Assembly (NCBI GenBank): GCA_002898535.1
Contig: BEHN01000020.1
Location: 1 to 53,127 of the forward strand
Origin: a bacterium HR11
GTDB taxonomy: Bacteria; Acidobacteriota; HRBIN11
Length of the DNA stretch: 53,127 bases
Direction: 5' to 3'
Shown here: positions 4,591 through 16,306 of the stretch, in pieces
Position numbering within the stretch: position 1 is the stretch's first letter
Layout: the number at the start of each line of letters is the position of its first letter
The notes under the pieces: model-generated
What the model saw: the letters and a program-made list of their open reading frames with translations, nothing else
The model's database searches: none
Told to the model about the DNA's origin: nothing
Made by a program: the position numbers and the translations under genes

Positions 4591-6270
4591 TCATCCAGGC
4601 CCCGAGCCCCGGGACCCGGCTCCCCCTATGGTCCGCTCCCGGGCCTGGGCCGCCACGTCCAGCCAGAAGGCCATCCCGTGGACCGTCCAGGCAAAGAGCG
4701 TCACGCCCCACATCGTCAGGTATAGCCCGCCCCATAGGAACAAGCGAGTTTCACCCACTGCCTCGATGCGGGCCAGCCAGCCGGGCGACAGGAGGCTCCC
4801 CCAGACCCGGGCCGGCGGCGTCCGGTATATCACGTACGTCAGGCCCGTGGCGAGCATGGCTGTCCCCCAAAGCAGGGACCCCTGGACGGCGTGGCCCCGC
4901 CAGAAGCGAGAGGCGCCTGGGATCAGGAAGCCGAGGCCCCGAGCGACCCAACGACCGATCTGCCCGAGACGGTCGTGCAGATACCGTAAGGCTCCGCCGA
5001 CGAAAAGCAGGACTCCGAACCCGAGACCCCACCAGGGGATCCGGCGGACGACCCACATGCCCATCAAGTGGCCGGCATTCTTCAGAATGGCAGGCCATCG
5101 GGCCGAGGCCGATAGGGTATGAAGTTCCGGCCATGTCGGTACGGGTGGGATCAATCGGTCTGGCACCAGGTCCCGCCAGGGTCCGATGAGGTAGGGCGCC
5201 GTCTGACGGACGTCGTCAAGGCGGTCGACGTCCCGGGCCAGCAAGGCCCGATCATATTCCAGGACGGGACTATCGCCGCGGACCTGGGACCAGAGTTCCG
5301 GCGAGCGGAGCAGGTAAGCCTGCCAGCGGATCGACAGGGCGCGCAGGGCTCGGGGTAGGTCCCGAGGCTCGGTCGCTGGCCTGAACAAGGCGTCCCAGGG
5401 TGGCGGCGGTCGCCGGATGAAACCGTCCCGCAGGAGCGAATCCCGCAGGACCTGCCAGGTCGAGAAGGCGCTAACGTACCAAGTCTGTAGGATGGCCAGG
5501 ACTCCAGCCAAGACGCCGGCGCCTAAAAGGAGTCCCACCCATATCCGAATTGGCCGGGTTGACCGAGGCGAGGCTCCCAGGGTCATCCCGAGGGCCAGAC
5601 CGGCGGCGACGACCCACCCCCAGACGTCCAGGGCCGATTCGAGGAGCGTCACTCGGGCCCGCCACTCCAGAGGTGCCACGCGGTAGGCCGCAAAGTCTCG
5701 GGCCAGGACCCGCTCCGTCTCCCGGATTCGCAGGTCCCAATCGACCGCACCCTGCTGTCGAAAGGTCTCGGCCAGGAGGCCGCTACGCACGCCTCGGTCC
5801 CAGAGGTTCGGCGTCCAGACGGATGCCCGAAGGAAGCGTTCGGCTAAAGCCGGCGTGACGCCCTGGTGAGCATACTCGGCTTCCCAGAGGCGCCACCACG
5901 GGAAAGCCTCAGGGGCCTGAGCATACACCGGGATGCCACCCTTTCGCAGATAGGTCCTCAAGCCCGCGGACCAGGCTTGCTGGGCAAGATCCTCCGCTCC
6001 ACAGAAATGCAGGACGTAAGCGGCCGCCTGGAGGGGTTCCCAAGCGCCCCGGGCCGACCAGCCCCGGATATGGACTTCCCACGTCTCGGCCGACCATTCG
6101 GGCCATCCGTCCGGGAGCCACGGCCGAGCGGCCGGAACCAGCCAGCGGAGACCCTCGGGAGACAGACAGACGCCGGGATAGGTGCCTCCCCCATAGGCCG
6201 ACGCGCTAAGCCCAATCCACAGACCCAGCCAGCCCACCGCCCACCGGCACAGACGACTGCGCATACCCAA
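4591..6270 (-). CDS. unknown large membrane protein with signal peptide
   Basis: This 559-residue protein starts with a signal peptide or anchor (CRWAVGWLGLWIGL). A soluble Trp-rich region of about 180 residues follows, which may form helical repeats. Two hydrophobic segments lie near residues 215-265, a second soluble block spans about 270-400, and three to four more membrane segments lie between about 410 and 545. I do not recognise the family. It begins three bases after the secretin stop codon on the same strand, so co-translation with the secretin is likely, and an envelope role is inferred. The C-terminal GAGSRGSGPG tail is encoded by a period-7 GC-rich array (about 4598-4626). The same residue pattern recurs in a loop of the GT-C enzyme at 35364. 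Confidence 0.8.
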   Translation of the reverse strand: MGMRSRLCRWAVGWLGLWIGLSASAYGGGTYPGVCLSPEGLRWLVPAARPWLPDGWPEWSAETWEVHIRGWSARGAWEPLQAAAYVLHFCGAEDLAQQAWSAGLRTYLRKGGIPVYAQAPEAFPWWRLWEAEYAHQGVTPALAERFLRASVWTPNLWDRGVRSGLLAETFRQQGAVDWDLRIRETERVLARDFAAYRVAPLEWRARVTLLESALDVWGWVVAAGLALGMTLGASPRSTRPIRIWVGLLLGAGVLAGVLAILQTWYVSAFSTWQVLRDSLLRDGFIRRPPPPWDALFRPATEPRDLPRALRALSIRWQAYLLRSPELWSQVRGDSPVLEYDRALLARDVDRLDDVRQTAPYLIGPWRDLVPDRLIPPVPTWPELHTLSASARWPAILKNAGHLMGMWVVRRIPWWGLGFGVLLFVGGALRYLHDRLGQIGRWVARGLGFLIPGASRFWRGHAVQGSLLWGTAMLATGLTYVIYRTPPARVWGSLLSPGWLARIEAVGETRLFLWGGLYLTMWGVTLFAWTVHGMAFWLDVAAQARERTIGGAGSRGSGPG

Positions 6271-9418: not shown

Positions 9419-12400
9419 TTACAGGATGGGCCCCAACGCCAGGGACCACCGGCTCCGGCGCTCCCCGGGCCGGGCGTCCAGGAGATAGGCCCAGTCGAGT
9501 CGAATCAGACCGATGGGACTGTACAGCCGCAGGCCCACGCCGGCTGCCTCCCGGACGGCCGATAAGCTCAGTCGGATATCCGACGGCTTGGCGAACACAT
9601 TCCCCACGTCCAGGAAGCCGGCGACTCCGACGTACCGGTGAAGGCGTCGGGTCACTTCCAGGTTGACCAGGAGGAGGGCTTCACCGCCGTCGGGCGCCCC
9701 CAAAATGTCGCGGGGTCCCAGGGCGTCGGTCGGCAGACCCCGGAAGGACGTCGGCCCGCCGGCGAAGAAGCGCTCCGTCGAGAGCAGGACCGGCTCCGTG
9801 AGGGGGTACGCCAGGCCCAGGCGGAGGCCGCTCACGGCCGTCCAGGTCGGATAGTCCCACGACCAGTACCGCTGGCCCTGAAAAAAGAGCTTCACGTAAG
9901 GCGTATCGCTCTTCAGCCAGCCGGGCGCGTACTCGACGTCCATCGACAGGAAGTGGCCCCGGCCGGGAATGACCCGGGCGTCTCGCGTGTCCCACTGCAG
10001 GCCGGCCGCCAACCGCCGCAGGTGAATCCGAAAATCCAGGGGGACCTCCCGGATGTCCTTGTCCTGGTAGCGATACCGCAGGAGCCAGCCGGGTCGGACC
10101 TGGACGATCTGCTCGACCGACCACGTCTGCTCGGTCGTCTGGGCCGTCCGGTGCGCGCCGGTCTCCAGGCCCGTCCGGGACTCTTCGATTCGGTCGTTCA
10201 GGTAGAACACGTTCGTCTGGACCGGCCACCCCAAGAGGTGACCCCACCCGAGGCCGAGCCGCCACTGGCGCAGGGTCGTCTCGACCCGGGTCGGCTCCCC
10301 GAAGAGCACGTCCTCCTCTGTACGGCCGGCCCGTCCCAGGCGAAGGCCGACGAGGGCCTGAAGCCCCAGACCCACGGGGTCCCGGGTCTGACCCGTCAGC
10401 TCGCCCTGGAAGGGCGGCGACCCGCCCCGGCGGCTGATGAAGGCATACCGCAGGCCGCCGCCGAGCTGGAGCAGAGGCCGCGGCGTCCCCTCGATGCGGA
10501 CCCGCCGAGCGTCCGGCGGGCTCTCGGGGTCCTCGTAGACGCGCACCTGGTGAAAGATGCCCAGGGCCATGACCCGGCGGCGGGCCCGCTCGAGGTCGTC
10601 GGGCCGAATCCGTTGGCCCGGCCGCAGGCCGGCGAGCCGCTTCAACCACGGGGCGCGGACCGGCAGACCGCTGGCCTCGATGGACCCGAGATGATAGGCC
10701 GGCCCGGGCGTCACACGAACCCGAAGGAGGCCGTCTTCAGGTCGCCAAGTCCACCCCAACTCGGCTTTCGCATAGCCCCGCCGGACGAGACGCCGGCGGG
10801 CTTCCTCGATGAAGGGGCGGACCTCTTCGTCCGTATAGAGCCGGCGGGTCAAGCCTTGTAGGAACAAACCGACGGGGGCTACATCTGGCGGCAGGCCCTC
10901 GACCTCGACCCGCCGGATGAGGGCCGGCCGTAGGACGACCGTGACGGTCCCCCGGTCGCCCGACGGCTCAAAGACGGACCGCACGTCCACGAGGGACCAG
11001 CCCCGGTCGGCGGCCCATTCCCGCCACGCCCGTTCGCACACCCCCGGCCGGTGCTTCAGCCACCACCAGGCGGGCGCTCCGGCCAGGGCCGGCGTGCCCT
11101 GACAGGCCTGAGCCCACGCCGCCGGGTCTTGGATGGTCCGGACGACGTCTTCCGGCAGGCCCTCTCCGTCGACGACCTGCCAGGCCCATCGGACATCGGG
11201 TCGCCGGCGTTGGGCGACGCCCGTCCAGACGGTCTCGACAAGGATGGATTCAGCATTCTCGTGAACCCGTACCCGGACGGGGGGCGTGTCCCAGCCCTCA
11301 AATCGGGCCCATGCCGCCAGGGCCGCCTCCATGCAGGCCTGTCCCCAGACGACGAGTGTGTGGCCCTGCCAGCACGGATAGGCCCATCGGGCCGGCGGCG
11401 GGGGCGTCACGTCAGGCGGCCATCCCGTCCGGACCCACTCGAACCGGGGTCCCCGTCGGACCTGCACGTGGAGCCGGTATGTCGGCTCCGCCCCCGACCG
11501 GGGTTCCAGGAACCACAAGACCTGGGCCCCCCAGTAGCCCATCTGCTGAAGGGCCGCCTCCAAGCGCGGGACCTGCCCTTGGATGCGCCCCACGTCCAAG
11601 GACTGGCCGGCGCGAATCCCCAGCAGTTTTTCCGTCTGCGGACCCGACCACGGGCCGTCTCCGGCGACCCGGACCTCCGCGATGACGGTCCGGGTCGCCT
11701 TCGCCGGACCCCGGCCGGCCGTCCACCCCGGCGCGGCCGCCCGGGGATACACGAACTGGGGCAGGGCGCTGAGGACCCATGAGGCGTCATCGTTGCGGGC
11801 GACTCGAAGCTGAAACCAGGCCCACGGCTGGGCCGAGACAATCCACGTCTGACGGCTCGTATTCCGGGCGTCGATGGAAAACAGCGTGTTCAGCCATGGG
11901 AGGAACGAGCGCTGGACGGTGATCCGGGCCGTCGGGTCGACTTCCGTCCCGCCCGTCAGGGACTGGACGGACTGGACCTCAGCGACCGGCACCCCGACAG
12001 TGATCGCCTCGATGCCCAGCAGGCGCGTGACGGGCCGCAGGAGGCCGACGGCGGCTTGCCCGCCCAGGGACATCACCATCGCCTGGCCCACGGCTCGAAG
12101 GGACATAGACGTGTCCGCCTCCCCGGCCAGGACCTTCTCCCGCGGTGCGGGCACGGCCCCGCCGCCCGTGACGAGGGCCAGGATTTCCGTCTCCGGGAGT
12201 GGCGGATCCGAGGTCAATCGGAGCATCGGCTCGATCAGGGTCCCCGTGATACCGACCTGGATTCGGTAAGGCTCCCGCGTCGTCTCCGACGGGGGCACCG
12301 TCGTCTCCATCTGGAACTCGACCCGGGGCTCCCAGGGCGCCGTCTGCGTCCACAGGAGGCGGGCCTGCGTGAGGCGATACGTCCTCTGCTGGAACGTGAT

Positions 12401-15400
12401 GGTACCGCCCGGCTCGGCGGCCCACTCGCCGTCCACGACGGGCGCCGTGACGGGGCCCCGCACGGTCCACTCCCCGGAGGACCGCACGACGGCCAGGTTG
12501 TTCTGAATGTCCCAGCGGTCGACCCGCAGACGCACGTCCAGGTCCAGGGGGACGGCGACCGGACGGGCCGGCGTCTCCGGGGCGGGGCCCGCACGGGTCA
12601 GGAGCATCGGGAGCCGAATCGGGAGCGTGAACACGCCCTCCGGGACTCGGACCTCCCCGCGTAAGACCCACGGGGTCGAGCGCGTGTCCAGGTCGAGCCG
12701 GCCGTTCAGCGAGAGGGACCAGCCGCCGGCCCCCAGGATGAGCAGGTCCTCGGCCGTCCATCGGGCGACGGGCCACGCCCACCGCCGCCGGTCCCACCGC
12801 CATCCGCCCTGCCATTCCAAGCGCCAGCGTCCCCGGAGGCCCGCCGCTTCCAGAAAGCCGCGGACGTCTTCCAGGCCCCGGACCTGGGCCTGAAGACGCA
12901 CCGGGTGAAAGCGAAGGCCCCCTTCGGGTAGATACCATTCGCCGTCGTCCATCCGGACCTCGCCGACGACGAGGGGATGCGCCAGAGGGCCCGATACCTG
13001 GAGGCTCCCCCGGAGCGTCCCGGCGATGGGCCACCCGAACCACGGCCGCATGAACGCCAGGTCTAAGGGACCCTGCCACGTCGCCTGGACGGCCCAGTCC
13101 CGCCAGGCCTGGGGCCGAAGCCACGCCGACCAGCTCCTCTCTCCGACCGGGCCGACCTCGACCCGCAGATGAAGGGCCTGCTGATTGACCGTCAGGGGCG
13201 TCAGGTCCGCCGCCAGCCGGTCCGGCGTCCATTCGACCCGCAGGGGTGCCGATAGGCTCAGGACCGTCGCCGCATAGACCAGCTCCAGAGCGTGAACTTC
13301 GAGGCTCCACTGAGGTCGGGGCCGGTGGATGTAGGTCCACGTCAGGTCCAGCCGACCCGGGGCCAGCAACTGCTCGGGTTGCCACCACGTCAACCACGTG
13401 CCGGGCTCGCCGTTCTGCAATCGCAGACGGACCTGCCGGCCGTCGGCCTCCAGCTCCCAGACTTCATCGCCGCGGACCAGCCGACACGGGCCGCCTTCCG
13501 GGACCGCCGCGGCCCATCGGCCCCGGAGCGTACAGGCATCCATCGTGTAGCCGTGCGGGCCTCGGAGGGACGTGACGGTCAGCGTCCATCCGGACAGACC
13601 CGACCGCCATCGCTCGGGCAGGCGGACCGAACCGACGACCTCGCCCGTCCAGCCGGTCGCCTGGGGCCCGAAGGCCGCCAGGTCCGAGAGACGGACCCGG
13701 TGCGTGACGACCAAGCCGTCCGGTCCGCCCCGGACCTCCCCGTGACCCAACCGGCCGGACCAGGCGCCGGCCTCGACGCTTCGAATGCGGTCTGCATCGA
13801 GGACGACGCCGAGCGGCCGGTTCAGGGCCAGGAGAGGCGTTCCCTCGAACTGCCACTCGAAGCGGTCGAGTCGGACCTCGACGGCCTCCACGGGTCGGCC
13901 CAGCCGAGGCGGCCAATCGCCGTCCGCCCGCAGGCGGGCGCCGTAAGCCCACCGGTGGGCCTTGAAAGCGAGGCCATCCCGTTGAAGCGTGACGGCCAGG
14001 CTCCATCGGGCGGGTCCGGCCGGCGGACCCTGCCAGCGGGCCTCGGCCCGAAGGCCCGGGACCGGGGCTTCCATCCGCAGACGGTAGTCCAGGGCCTTGG
14101 GCGTTTCGATATGGAGGCTCAGGTCTCCCAAGGCTTGGCCGTCCCAGCGGACGTCCTGCCAAAGGATTTCCCCCGAGAGGCGGGGCGCATCCAAACGGCC
14201 GGCGCCCTGGAGTCTCCAGTCCAGACCCCCGTCTTGAAGCCGGACGTCGGCCCACCAGGCCCGGACGGTCGTCCGGCCCGTGATGGTCCATTCCAGACTC
14301 CCCTGACGTTCGTCCCACCGACCGATCGCCTCGGCCGTGACGAGGCCGTCCCGGACGTGGACGTGAAACCGCCAGACGGGTGCCGAGGCCCGTTCAATGC
14401 GGGCCTCCAGGATGCCGACGGTCTGCCACGAACCCGGCGCCGGTCCCCGGTACCGGAGCGGCGTCGTCCGGAGGGATACGGCGGAGGGACCCCACCGAAC
14501 GCCGACGCCCTGCAGGTCCAGCGTGGCCTCGGCGACGGTCCCTTCGACGGACGGGGTCGAAGCCGTCGGCCGCGGCGGCCATCCGAAAGGCCAGTCCCGG
14601 AGGCGCCCCTTTAGGTTCCACCGGAACGGCACGTCGGGGAAGCCTGTAAAGGTCAGGTCCCACGTGCTTTGATACCGACCGGCGGCCGAGCCCGTCTCGA
14701 TGTGGGCCTGACCCGTGACGCGACGACCCGCCTGCTGAAGGTGTCCCTCCTGTCGAACGTCGATGCCGGGAAGCCACGGCTTGTAGGCCAAAGTCATGGC
14801 GGCCGACCATCGGGCCTGCCAGCGGCGGCCGTCCGTCGTGCCCTCTGCCTCGACGCGCCATGGGTGGGGATGCCAGGCCAGGCCGGTCGGAAGCCGGTAA
14901 GACGGGAACCATGCGAGGACCTCGCGGACGGCCCGTTCGTGCCAGTCCCGGCCCGTCGCCTGAAGCCGCCAGGTCGCCGACCGCGTGTCGACGGACGCCT
15001 CGGCCCGGACGAGTTCATCCGGCGGCCCGGCTTTCGAAGCATCTGCACGGTCCAGGCTCAACCGAAAGACCCACCGGTCCGGCGTCGGGAGGGTCAGCGT
15101 CCCGGACTGCCGCCACAGGGCCATCGCCGTCGGCCAGGCGACTTCCCAACGGGCGTGGCCTCGGGTCGGAAGCGGCGCGCCCGTCGCGCCCTCGAGGTCG
15201 AGCTCGCCCGTCAGGCGCGGCGGCCGTCGCCAGCGTTCGGGCCATCGGTCGCCGACGCCGGGCCACAGAGCGTCCCACCGGGCCGAAAGCCGCCACGCTC
15301 CGCCCTGGACCGAAGCCTCGGCTTGCACGGGCGACCCCGCCGGGGATTCCAGACGGAGCCGGCATCGGGATTCGTCCGGTCGAACTCGGCAGTCCGCCCG

Positions 15401-16306
15401 GACCTGCCAGACGGCTCCGTCCGGTCCAAGGCTCGCCGTGAGGGAAATCGGGCGGCCCCCGGCCATGTCGGCCTGAAAGGTCCATCGGCGGGTCCAGAGG
15501 TCCCGGACGGCCACGCCCGTATAAGCTTCCCAGGCGGCCCACCGATCCATCCCGGCGGGGAGCGGCAGGAAGAGGTGGCCGTCCGCTCGGGCCTGCCAGA
15601 CGCCCGTGACCAGGTGGTAGTGGCCGGACCCGTGGACGCCCCACCCGCGGCCGTCGGGCGCATCATACCGGAGGTCTGTCTCGAAGGCGGCGTCCATCCG
15701 GGGATCGACCCGCACGTCGGCCGTCAGGACCAGGGGGGTCCACGTCGTCGCCTGCCATTGAAGGGTTCCCTCAATCCGGGTCTGAAACCGGTAGCCCGTG
15801 CCGTCGGGCATGGGGACGGTCGTGCCGTCCATCCGAACGGACCGAAGCTCGGCCGTCCACGTCCGCCAGGGGTCCTGGCCGGCGAGTCGGCCGGCATGGA
15901 CCACGAGGGTCGGCAACGGTTGGACCCAGGCGCCGCCGCCCCTGAGAGGCGGTACGTTCCATCGGTCCGGCGCCGTGCGGACGACCTGGAGGGTCGGCGC
16001 AAAGACCTCGACGCGCTGAAGGGGTTGGCGAAACCGCCACCACCGAAAGACGAGGTCCAGTCGTTCAATGGACAGGAAGGGCGGTGCTTCGGGACCTGAC
16101 CCGACGGCGAGGCCTTCCAGCGTGACACGCGTCCAGAAGGGGCTGGCCCGGAGGTCCCGCCACGTAACGAACCAGCCCCACGACCGCTGAAGGGCCTGCT
16201 GGACGACGTGGCGAACCCACCGGGCGAAAAGGGGCGAGTGGGAGAACCCAAGCAGGATGAAGAAAACTCCGACAATTAGGAGTGTGGTCCGTCCTATCCG
16301 ACGCAT
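9419..16306 (-). CDS. TamB-Omp85 single-chain fusion (TAM-like translocation/lipid transport)
   Basis: This 2295-residue open frame joins two proteins that are normally separate. Residues 7-28 are an uncleaved hydrophobic anchor. Residues about 35-1520 are TamB-like: beta-rich and repetitive, with the family-typical C-terminal region (about 1270-1510) including GGTITFQQRTYRL and ALVTGGGAVP. From about 1539 POTRA-like modules follow, including VIAEVRVAGDG, RRVEVEGLPP (about 1795) and LGSIEASGLPV (about 1870). A 16-strand-sized Omp85 barrel occupies about 1940-2295. The loop-6 VRGF equivalent is SFRGLPTDALGPRD. TamB (inner membrane) and TamA (outer-membrane Omp85) form the TAM complex in Proteobacteria, and TamB-family proteins are implicated in phospholipid transport. 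Here one chain would run from the inner to the outer membrane. No in-frame stop or frameshift is seen. The upstream ribosome site is weak, suggesting coupling to the DsbA-like gene. Confidence 0.9.
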   Translation of the reverse strand: MRRIGRTTLLIVGVFFILLGFSHSPLFARWVRHVVQQALQRSWGWFVTWRDLRASPFWTRVTLEGLAVGSGPEAPPFLSIERLDLVFRWWRFRQPLQRVEVFAPTLQVVRTAPDRWNVPPLRGGGAWVQPLPTLVVHAGRLAGQDPWRTWTAELRSVRMDGTTVPMPDGTGYRFQTRIEGTLQWQATTWTPLVLTADVRVDPRMDAAFETDLRYDAPDGRGWGVHGSGHYHLVTGVWQARADGHLFLPLPAGMDRWAAWEAYTGVAVRDLWTRRWTFQADMAGGRPISLTASLGPDGAVWQVRADCRVRPDESRCRLRLESPAGSPVQAEASVQGGAWRLSARWDALWPGVGDRWPERWRRPPRLTGELDLEGATGAPLPTRGHARWEVAWPTAMALWRQSGTLTLPTPDRWVFRLSLDRADASKAGPPDELVRAEASVDTRSATWRLQATGRDWHERAVREVLAWFPSYRLPTGLAWHPHPWRVEAEGTTDGRRWQARWSAAMTLAYKPWLPGIDVRQEGHLQQAGRRVTGQAHIETGSAAGRYQSTWDLTFTGFPDVPFRWNLKGRLRDWPFGWPPRPTASTPSVEGTVAEATLDLQGVGVRWGPSAVSLRTTPLRYRGPAPGSWQTVGILEARIERASAPVWRFHVHVRDGLVTAEAIGRWDERQGSLEWTITGRTTVRAWWADVRLQDGGLDWRLQGAGRLDAPRLSGEILWQDVRWDGQALGDLSLHIETPKALDYRLRMEAPVPGLRAEARWQGPPAGPARWSLAVTLQRDGLAFKAHRWAYGARLRADGDWPPRLGRPVEAVEVRLDRFEWQFEGTPLLALNRPLGVVLDADRIRSVEAGAWSGRLGHGEVRGGPDGLVVTHRVRLSDLAAFGPQATGWTGEVVGSVRLPERWRSGLSGWTLTVTSLRGPHGYTMDACTLRGRWAAAVPEGGPCRLVRGDEVWELEADGRQVRLRLQNGEPGTWLTWWQPEQLLAPGRLDLTWTYIHRPRPQWSLEVHALELVYAATVLSLSAPLRVEWTPDRLAADLTPLTVNQQALHLRVEVGPVGERSWSAWLRPQAWRDWAVQATWQGPLDLAFMRPWFGWPIAGTLRGSLQVSGPLAHPLVVGEVRMDDGEWYLPEGGLRFHPVRLQAQVRGLEDVRGFLEAAGLRGRWRLEWQGGWRWDRRRWAWPVARWTAEDLLILGAGGWSLSLNGRLDLDTRSTPWVLRGEVRVPEGVFTLPIRLPMLLTRAGPAPETPARPVAVPLDLDVRLRVDRWDIQNNLAVVRSSGEWTVRGPVTAPVVDGEWAAEPGGTITFQQRTYRLTQARLLWTQTAPWEPRVEFQMETTVPPSETTREPYRIQVGITGTLIEPMLRLTSDPPLPETEILALVTGGGAVPAPREKVLAGEADTSMSLRAVGQAMVMSLGGQAAVGLLRPVTRLLGIEAITVGVPVAEVQSVQSLTGGTEVDPTARITVQRSFLPWLNTLFSIDARNTSRQTWIVSAQPWAWFQLRVARNDDASWVLSALPQFVYPRAAAPGWTAGRGPAKATRTVIAEVRVAGDGPWSGPQTEKLLGIRAGQSLDVGRIQGQVPRLEAALQQMGYWGAQVLWFLEPRSGAEPTYRLHVQVRRGPRFEWVRTGWPPDVTPPPPARWAYPCWQGHTLVVWGQACMEAALAAWARFEGWDTPPVRVRVHENAESILVETVWTGVAQRRRPDVRWAWQVVDGEGLPEDVVRTIQDPAAWAQACQGTPALAGAPAWWWLKHRPGVCERAWREWAADRGWSLVDVRSVFEPSGDRGTVTVVLRPALIRRVEVEGLPPDVAPVGLFLQGLTRRLYTDEEVRPFIEEARRRLVRRGYAKAELGWTWRPEDGLLRVRVTPGPAYHLGSIEASGLPVRAPWLKRLAGLRPGQRIRPDDLERARRRVMALGIFHQVRVYEDPESPPDARRVRIEGTPRPLLQLGGGLRYAFISRRGGSPPFQGELTGQTRDPVGLGLQALVGLRLGRAGRTEEDVLFGEPTRVETTLRQWRLGLGWGHLLGWPVQTNVFYLNDRIEESRTGLETGAHRTAQTTEQTWSVEQIVQVRPGWLLRYRYQDKDIREVPLDFRIHLRRLAAGLQWDTRDARVIPGRGHFLSMDVEYAPGWLKSDTPYVKLFFQGQRYWSWDYPTWTAVSGLRLGLAYPLTEPVLLSTERFFAGGPTSFRGLPTDALGPRDILGAPDGGEALLLVNLEVTRRLHRYVGVAGFLDVGNVFAKPSDIRLSLSAVREAAGVGLRLYSPIGLIRLDWAYLLDARPGERRSRWSLALGPIL

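Follow-up and report, generated by a model that had tools for sequence, protein, structure and literature searches.

TAM of Escherichia coli consists of two proteins encoded by two genes in the order tamA-tamB: TamB, which has an N-terminal anchor and a C-terminal PF04357 domain, and TamA, an Omp85 barrel with three POTRA domains and its own signal peptide. In the TamAB complex, the last TamB strand pairs with strand 1 of TamA and the adjacent strands fold within the barrel; this strand contact is absent from a second state, and lipid-like density is reported on TamB (PMC12800296). BamA-TamB of Borrelia, a BAM-TAM hybrid in which TamB works with a five-POTRA Omp85 protein and in which genes and proteins are separate, is predicted to form a similar hybrid barrel (PMC13382580). 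The nearest relatives of the protein described here are the acidobacterial TamB and a second BamA-like Omp85 encoded nearby in the genome (Heinz et al. 2015, PMC4494059). The TamB is of the same type, but in that survey of TAM evolution the two were treated as separate genes, the Omp85 has up to seven POTRAs, and the consulted parts of the survey mention no fusion. The closest single-chain precedent comes from an unrelated family: in the elongated MlaD of Veillonella parvula, one chain combines an anchor in the inner membrane with a barrel in the outer membrane at its C-terminus and is proposed to form a lipid bridge, but MlaD is an MCE-domain hexamer with a ten-strand non-Omp85 barrel and the opposite proposed direction of transport (PMC10665443). 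Omp85 barrels are also known with variable N-terminal modules, but in the consulted parts of Heinz and Lithgow 2014 (PMC4104836) none of the ten architectures has a TamB/DUF490 module. The reviews and surveys that we searched, in the parts consulted, treat TamB and Omp85 as two distinct proteins and contain no description of a single-chain TamB-Omp85, agreeing with a first-pass annotation that knew of no characterized single-chain TAM; this search extended neither to whole articles, paywalled journals or preprints nor to databases of domain architecture, and such a fusion may be listed somewhere already.

TamB and an Omp85 protein are encoded in one intact reading frame

The DNA analyzed here (the window) is a stretch of 53,127 nucleotides from the acidobacterial genome of bacterium HR11. 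On its minus strand, an ORF at 9419-16306 runs from an ATG at 16306 to a stop codon ending at 9419 and comprises 2295 codons with no internal stop, confirming the continuous frame that had been read from the letters without mention of the strand. Judged from its Pfam matches and homologues, this ORF is a true fusion of TamB and Omp85. The protein begins with a hydrophobic signal anchor at residues about 7-27 (TTLLIVGVFFILLGFSHSPLF; 16226-16288), which was read from the sequence and has similar counterparts in many fused homologues, followed by the TamB repeat region with its AsmA/YhdP-like N-terminal part (residues 28-1165; 12812-16225), the TamB domain PF04357 (residues 1166-1457; 11936-12811) and the TamB C-terminal beta strands (residues 1458-1520; 11747-11935), the counterpart of the E. 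coli strands that enter the TamA barrel. A fusion linker (residues 1521-1539, PRAAAPGWTAGRGPAKATR; 11690-11746) then leads to five POTRAs and an Omp85 beta-barrel (residues 1945-2295; 9422-10474) with a loop-6 FRG motif (residues 2188-2190; 9737-9745). The anchor, the TamB-like region of about 1500 residues (the TamB part ends at about residue 1520), the several POTRA modules and the barrel with its FRG motif had all been proposed in the first-pass annotation and are borne out.

Because the window DNA is a metagenome assembly and split neighbors in the phylum may be only one stop codon apart, we considered that an assembly or annotation error had merged two neighboring genes. This explanation is already ruled out because independent genomes carry the fusion: it is present at full length in a same-genus genome (G001/L037; 87% identity), in a second genome (G002) its sole interruption is the end of the contig beyond residue 1716, and it recurs in G059, a complete genome in one contig, and across more than 20 families. 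A stop or frameshift near residues 1520-1540, which had been named as an observation that would overturn the fusion, is found neither in the window nor in these two relatives, and a linker stands in place of the signal peptide of the partner. Compared with L037, dN/dS is below 1 in every segment and thus on both sides of the joint: 0.27 in the TamB N-terminal part, 0.33 in PF04357, 0 in the TamB tail (zero amino-acid changes across 60 codons), 0.27 in the POTRAs and 0.09 in the barrel, the most constrained segment. These values indicate that the fused gene is under purifying selection.

Both parts are divergent members of their superfamilies

The N-terminal part has the features of the TamB family, i.e. 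the anchor, an AsmA-like repeat region and a PF04357 match well above the cut-off (78.2 bits versus 22.4), together with a weak DUF748 match below cut-off at residues 6-119. Because the whole N-terminal 1160 residues align with stand-alone acidobacterial TamB in hhalign (1091 columns, E 6.6e-94, probability 100), this part is TamB and belongs to no other family; descent from a family unrelated to TamB/AsmA, the other way in which the initial reading could have failed, is thereby ruled out.

The C-terminal part has the hallmarks of the Omp85 superfamily. Specifically, Pfam identifies a PF01103 barrel at residues 2088-2292 (107 bits versus a cut-off of 24) and a POTRA at residues 1873-1936 (31.1 bits versus 21.3), and the arginine of the loop-6 motif (R2189) is invariant in an alignment of 18 fused homologues. 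Divided into parts, this alignment also served for comparison with reference proteins, and its C-terminal part aligns with both E. coli BamA (E 3.4e-37, residues 87-809) and TamA (E 1.3e-22). In a sequence search of solved structures, E. coli-type TamA matches the barrel (residues 2109-2293) and, weakly, the adjoining POTRA.

The POTRA arm comprises POTRA1 (residues 1540-1620; 11447-11689), the divergent POTRA2 (residues 1621-1699; 11210-11446), POTRA3 with an extra helix (residues 1700-1795; 10922-11209), POTRA4 (residues 1796-1869; 10700-10921) and POTRA5 (residues 1870-1944; 10475-10699), all of these starts being approximate. The number of five is based on inspection by eye, a length match to E. 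coli BamA, hhalign of POTRA1 to POTRA4 (POTRA1 and POTRA2 to the BamA POTRA arm), the Pfam match in POTRA5 and an AF2 model of residues 1380-2295. Because this model was built from an alignment of two sequences (window and L037) and has a mean pLDDT of 35, we took from it the POTRA secondary structure alone; the beta-alpha-alpha-beta-beta order is seen in POTRA1, POTRA3, POTRA4 and POTRA5 and mostly in POTRA2, in which the first helix is not predicted. A POTRA HMM iterated from the sequences collapsed to a 38-column helix core and gave numbers that are too low; therefore, POTRA counts rely on Pfam, hhalign and the AF2 model. In fused relatives, Pfam detects five POTRA stretches in L094 and four in L087.

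At the level of equivalogs, the protein scores far below the cut-offs for TamB (NCBIfam NF047952, 16.8 bits versus 825), TamA (NF047950, 74.8 bits versus 625) and BamA (TIGR03303, 90.1 bits versus 297), and we therefore regard it as a divergent member of both superfamilies. Its five POTRAs set it apart from the three of TamA and are a trait shared with BamA that is insufficient for assignment to BamA. Accordingly, the first-pass annotation was right that the partner is an Omp85 protein with POTRAs, but the name TamA is too specific. Compared with E. coli TAM, the same two functions are paired and the TamB C-terminal strands likewise adjoin the Omp85 part, but here they are carried by one chain with TamB first.

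Fused genes are common in Acidobacteriota and arose repeatedly

To determine how widespread the fusion is, ORFs in about 85 regions from Acidobacteriota genomes were scanned with profiles grown from the window protein. In about 40 cases, drawn from more than 20 Acidobacteriota families, we verified that one ORF contains both TamB and Omp85; these ORFs are 1855-2779 aa long. In a draw of 99 Acidobacteriota genomes, each at least 90% complete, TamB was found in 87, and its frame reaches 1850 aa or more in 26 of these; the same frame contains an Omp85 barrel in 25 of the 26 (partial in L151), and the remaining one (G003, L085) has an assembly gap inside the barrel. The profile search that the first-pass annotation had suggested thus shows, within Acidobacteriota, that the fusion is common in the phylum, and it corrects the published picture of acidobacterial TAM as separate genes. 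A search of a plasmid collection returned Omp85-barrel matches only.

In the other genomes TamB and Omp85 are separate, usually with TamB directly 5' of Omp85 and sometimes in the reverse order. In L092 and L111, separate TamB and Omp85 lie in one frame with a single stop codon between them (TAA at L092:7629-7631; TGA at L111:9149-9151), a plausible precursor of the fusion or possibly a post-fission state. Many genomes, including that of the window, have a fused copy and another TamB. In G059 (complete, single contig), G035 and G007, the fused TamB is the only one found; in each, an additional Omp85 frame of full length (887-1130 aa) stands apart and is probably BamA.

A tree of 73 taxa based on the TamB and barrel domains requires four changes between the fused and split states, at least three of them forced by well supported branches. 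In addition, an AU test on 36 taxa, a set and a question both picked after the 73-taxon tree had been seen, rejected a single clade of all fused proteins (p 5.8e-5) and, hence, one origin for all fusions. Because the trees reject a single fused clade, fusion (or fission) occurred at least three times; the number of state changes does not distinguish between the two. The fusions of families f25, which has seven POTRAs where most fused members have five, and f12 nest within the split group. The grouping of clade I, which contains the window protein, with clade II has a support of 70, and the two are separate in the 73-taxon tree; they may or may not share one origin.

One genome (G024) carries two different fused genes (contigs C10 and C51; L076, L079), one with a much shorter POTRA arm. 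In the 2779-aa fused protein L087 (G111), about 2000 residues belong to TamB, far more than in the others, which may reflect a wider periplasm.

The junction directly follows the TamB C-terminal strands

Separate TamBs end in a beta strand and an aromatic residue directly before the stop codon. An HMM built from their last 80 aa matches 41 of 41 sequences (38 fused ORFs, near-copies and the gap-broken L085), many to the final HMM position; thus, the tail strand segment is kept in all fused members. It is weakly recognizable in the window protein, whose TamB tail has diverged further than that of any other member (14.6 bits, E 5e-5) and in which the HMM match ends at position 66 of 79 and the last strand was assigned by eye. 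In the fused proteins, the tail is followed by a linker of roughly 12-45 residues (~19 in the window protein) that is Pro/Arg-rich and poorly conserved, and then by POTRA1. Separate Omp85s start with a signal peptide that is absent from the fused proteins, in which the linker takes its place. Because the junction follows the full TamB tail and the signal peptide of the partner is gone, the fusion joins a complete TamB to a complete mature Omp85. As judged from these alignments, the junction lies directly after the last TamB strand, i.e. the strand that pairs with the lateral gate of TamA in E. coli TamAB.

Short, Pro/Arg-rich and poorly conserved linkers would also suit a polyprotein that is cut in the linker after export to give an ordinary TamB and Omp85 pair. 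The linker of f25 is longer and in some members has by eye a hydrophobic stretch, which may be a signal-peptide remnant. Against this, inspection by eye of clade I and II linkers, including that of the window protein, found no hydrophobic signal-peptide core and no common cleavage motif, and POTRA1, being without its own signal peptide, would need the cleavage. We therefore consider such a polyprotein improbable; processing of the chain in vivo is possible.

The PF04357 match in the window protein ends at profile position 328 of 381. Together with the incomplete tail HMM match and the presence of a separate TamB in the same genome, this would be expected of a paralogue that has lost hybrid-barrel engagement and whose Omp85 part is merely the outer-membrane anchor of a TamB lipid bridge. 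However, the barrel is the most constrained segment, the TamB tail is unchanged in amino acids between species, and other fused members have kept the full tail, making this loss unlikely.

The single chain likely bridges the cell envelope

We consider it likely that the fused protein acts as a TAM-like bridge across the envelope in a single chain. Its N-terminal helix would anchor the chain in the inner membrane, and the TamB part of ~1500 residues would form a groove-lined beta-taco across the periplasm, with the five POTRAs at the outer membrane and the Omp85 barrel in it. Consistent with the proposal in the first-pass annotation, the TamB C-terminus is joined to POTRA1 in an order that permits one chain from inner to outer membrane and fixes a 1:1 stoichiometry. 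Phospholipids, and possibly nascent barrel proteins, would travel along the TamB part to the lateral gate of Omp85; by analogy, the mode of action is most likely that of separate TamB-Omp85 complexes. The retained TamB C-terminal strands are probably still able to engage the gate, with the linker returning to POTRA1. If a hybrid barrel forms as in E. coli, the direction of the strands suggests a periplasmic location for the end of the last TamB strand, and a linker of ~19 residues, spanning at most ~65 Å when extended, could reach POTRA1, although tightly with five POTRAs. Because the reach of the linker is tight, the gate could be engaged in cis, in trans through a second molecule, or only transiently.

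The fused state would amount to permanent pairing, and a permanent 1:1 TAM-like bridge is the most likely arrangement. Because such fusions are widespread in the phylum and originated on several occasions, the fused pair probably acts as one inner-to-outer-membrane unit. A more specific version, which we put forward tentatively and with less than even confidence, is that the chain is a full lipid bridge from inner to outer membrane in which its own C-terminal TamB strand closes or opens its own Omp85 gate in an intramolecular hybrid barrel, and that this arrangement evolved repeatedly and is the sole TAM in some lineages.

These considerations bear on whether TamB and Omp85 form a fixed complex, in which ratio, and whether the TamB C-terminal strand acts at the lateral gate. 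Repeated natural fusions right after this strand are strong evolutionary evidence for TamB and Omp85 as a unit, and they limit the topology: a free TamB C-terminus is unnecessary, and the C-terminus must lie close enough to POTRA1 for the linker to span the distance. With stoichiometry and pairing fixed, the single chain is a convenient structure target for an envelope-spanning bridge.

Gene neighborhood and related genes

The fused gene in the window is flanked by DsbA-like, thioesterase, Yip1, secretin, SDR and SecA genes, four of which (DsbA-like, Yip1-like, thioesterase and secretin) had been taken to suggest a dedicated envelope cluster. These neighbors are common to the same genus only. 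Next to fused genes outside the genus none of the flanking genes recurs except for a short SecA C-terminal match in L118, and among clade I fusions we found no partner gene that is conserved. Because the DsbA-like, Yip1, thioesterase and secretin genes never recur beside fused genes beyond the genus, a dedicated cluster is ruled out. Beside the secretin gene, a 559-aa ORF (4591-6270, minus strand) has no Pfam match and no homologue in the corresponding regions of relatives, whose contigs end nearby.

Split TamB-Omp85 pairs have a SurA-N-like chaperone gene alongside in 15 families, mostly in the order TamB-Omp85-SurA_N. Among the conserved third genes beside split pairs (L112:12443-13090, L124:11301-12008, L128:4177-4815, L131:11569-12306 and L133:4037-4702), those of L128 and L131 match SurA N-terminal chaperone families, and those of L112, L124 and L133 cluster with them.

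The chaperone gene links the TamB-Omp85 family to OMP biogenesis, five-POTRA Omp85 proteins are barrel assemblers (BamA), and TAM is reported to catalyze OMP assembly in vitro (PMC11341756). The fused protein could, therefore, be a single-chain OMP assembly machine, in which the Omp85 gate inserts a subset of clients, TamB serves as scaffold and lipid transport is secondary. However, the SurA-like gene is found only by split pairs, a separate BamA is present, and the long TamB part would be expensive for a mere tether; we view this function as conceivable but not as the one to be expected. For the bridge that we favor, the role of the fused copy in this bacterium may be specialized or redundant because BamA, a stand-alone TamB and a further POTRA-bearing Omp85 are encoded in the same genome. 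Contig C3 of this genome carries a separate five-POTRA Omp85. Contig C9 encodes a 971-aa protein (L145:6675-9590) that combines PD40 repeats of the WD40-like type with an Omp85 barrel and resembles the class of WD40-like Omp85 proteins in Heinz and Lithgow 2014.
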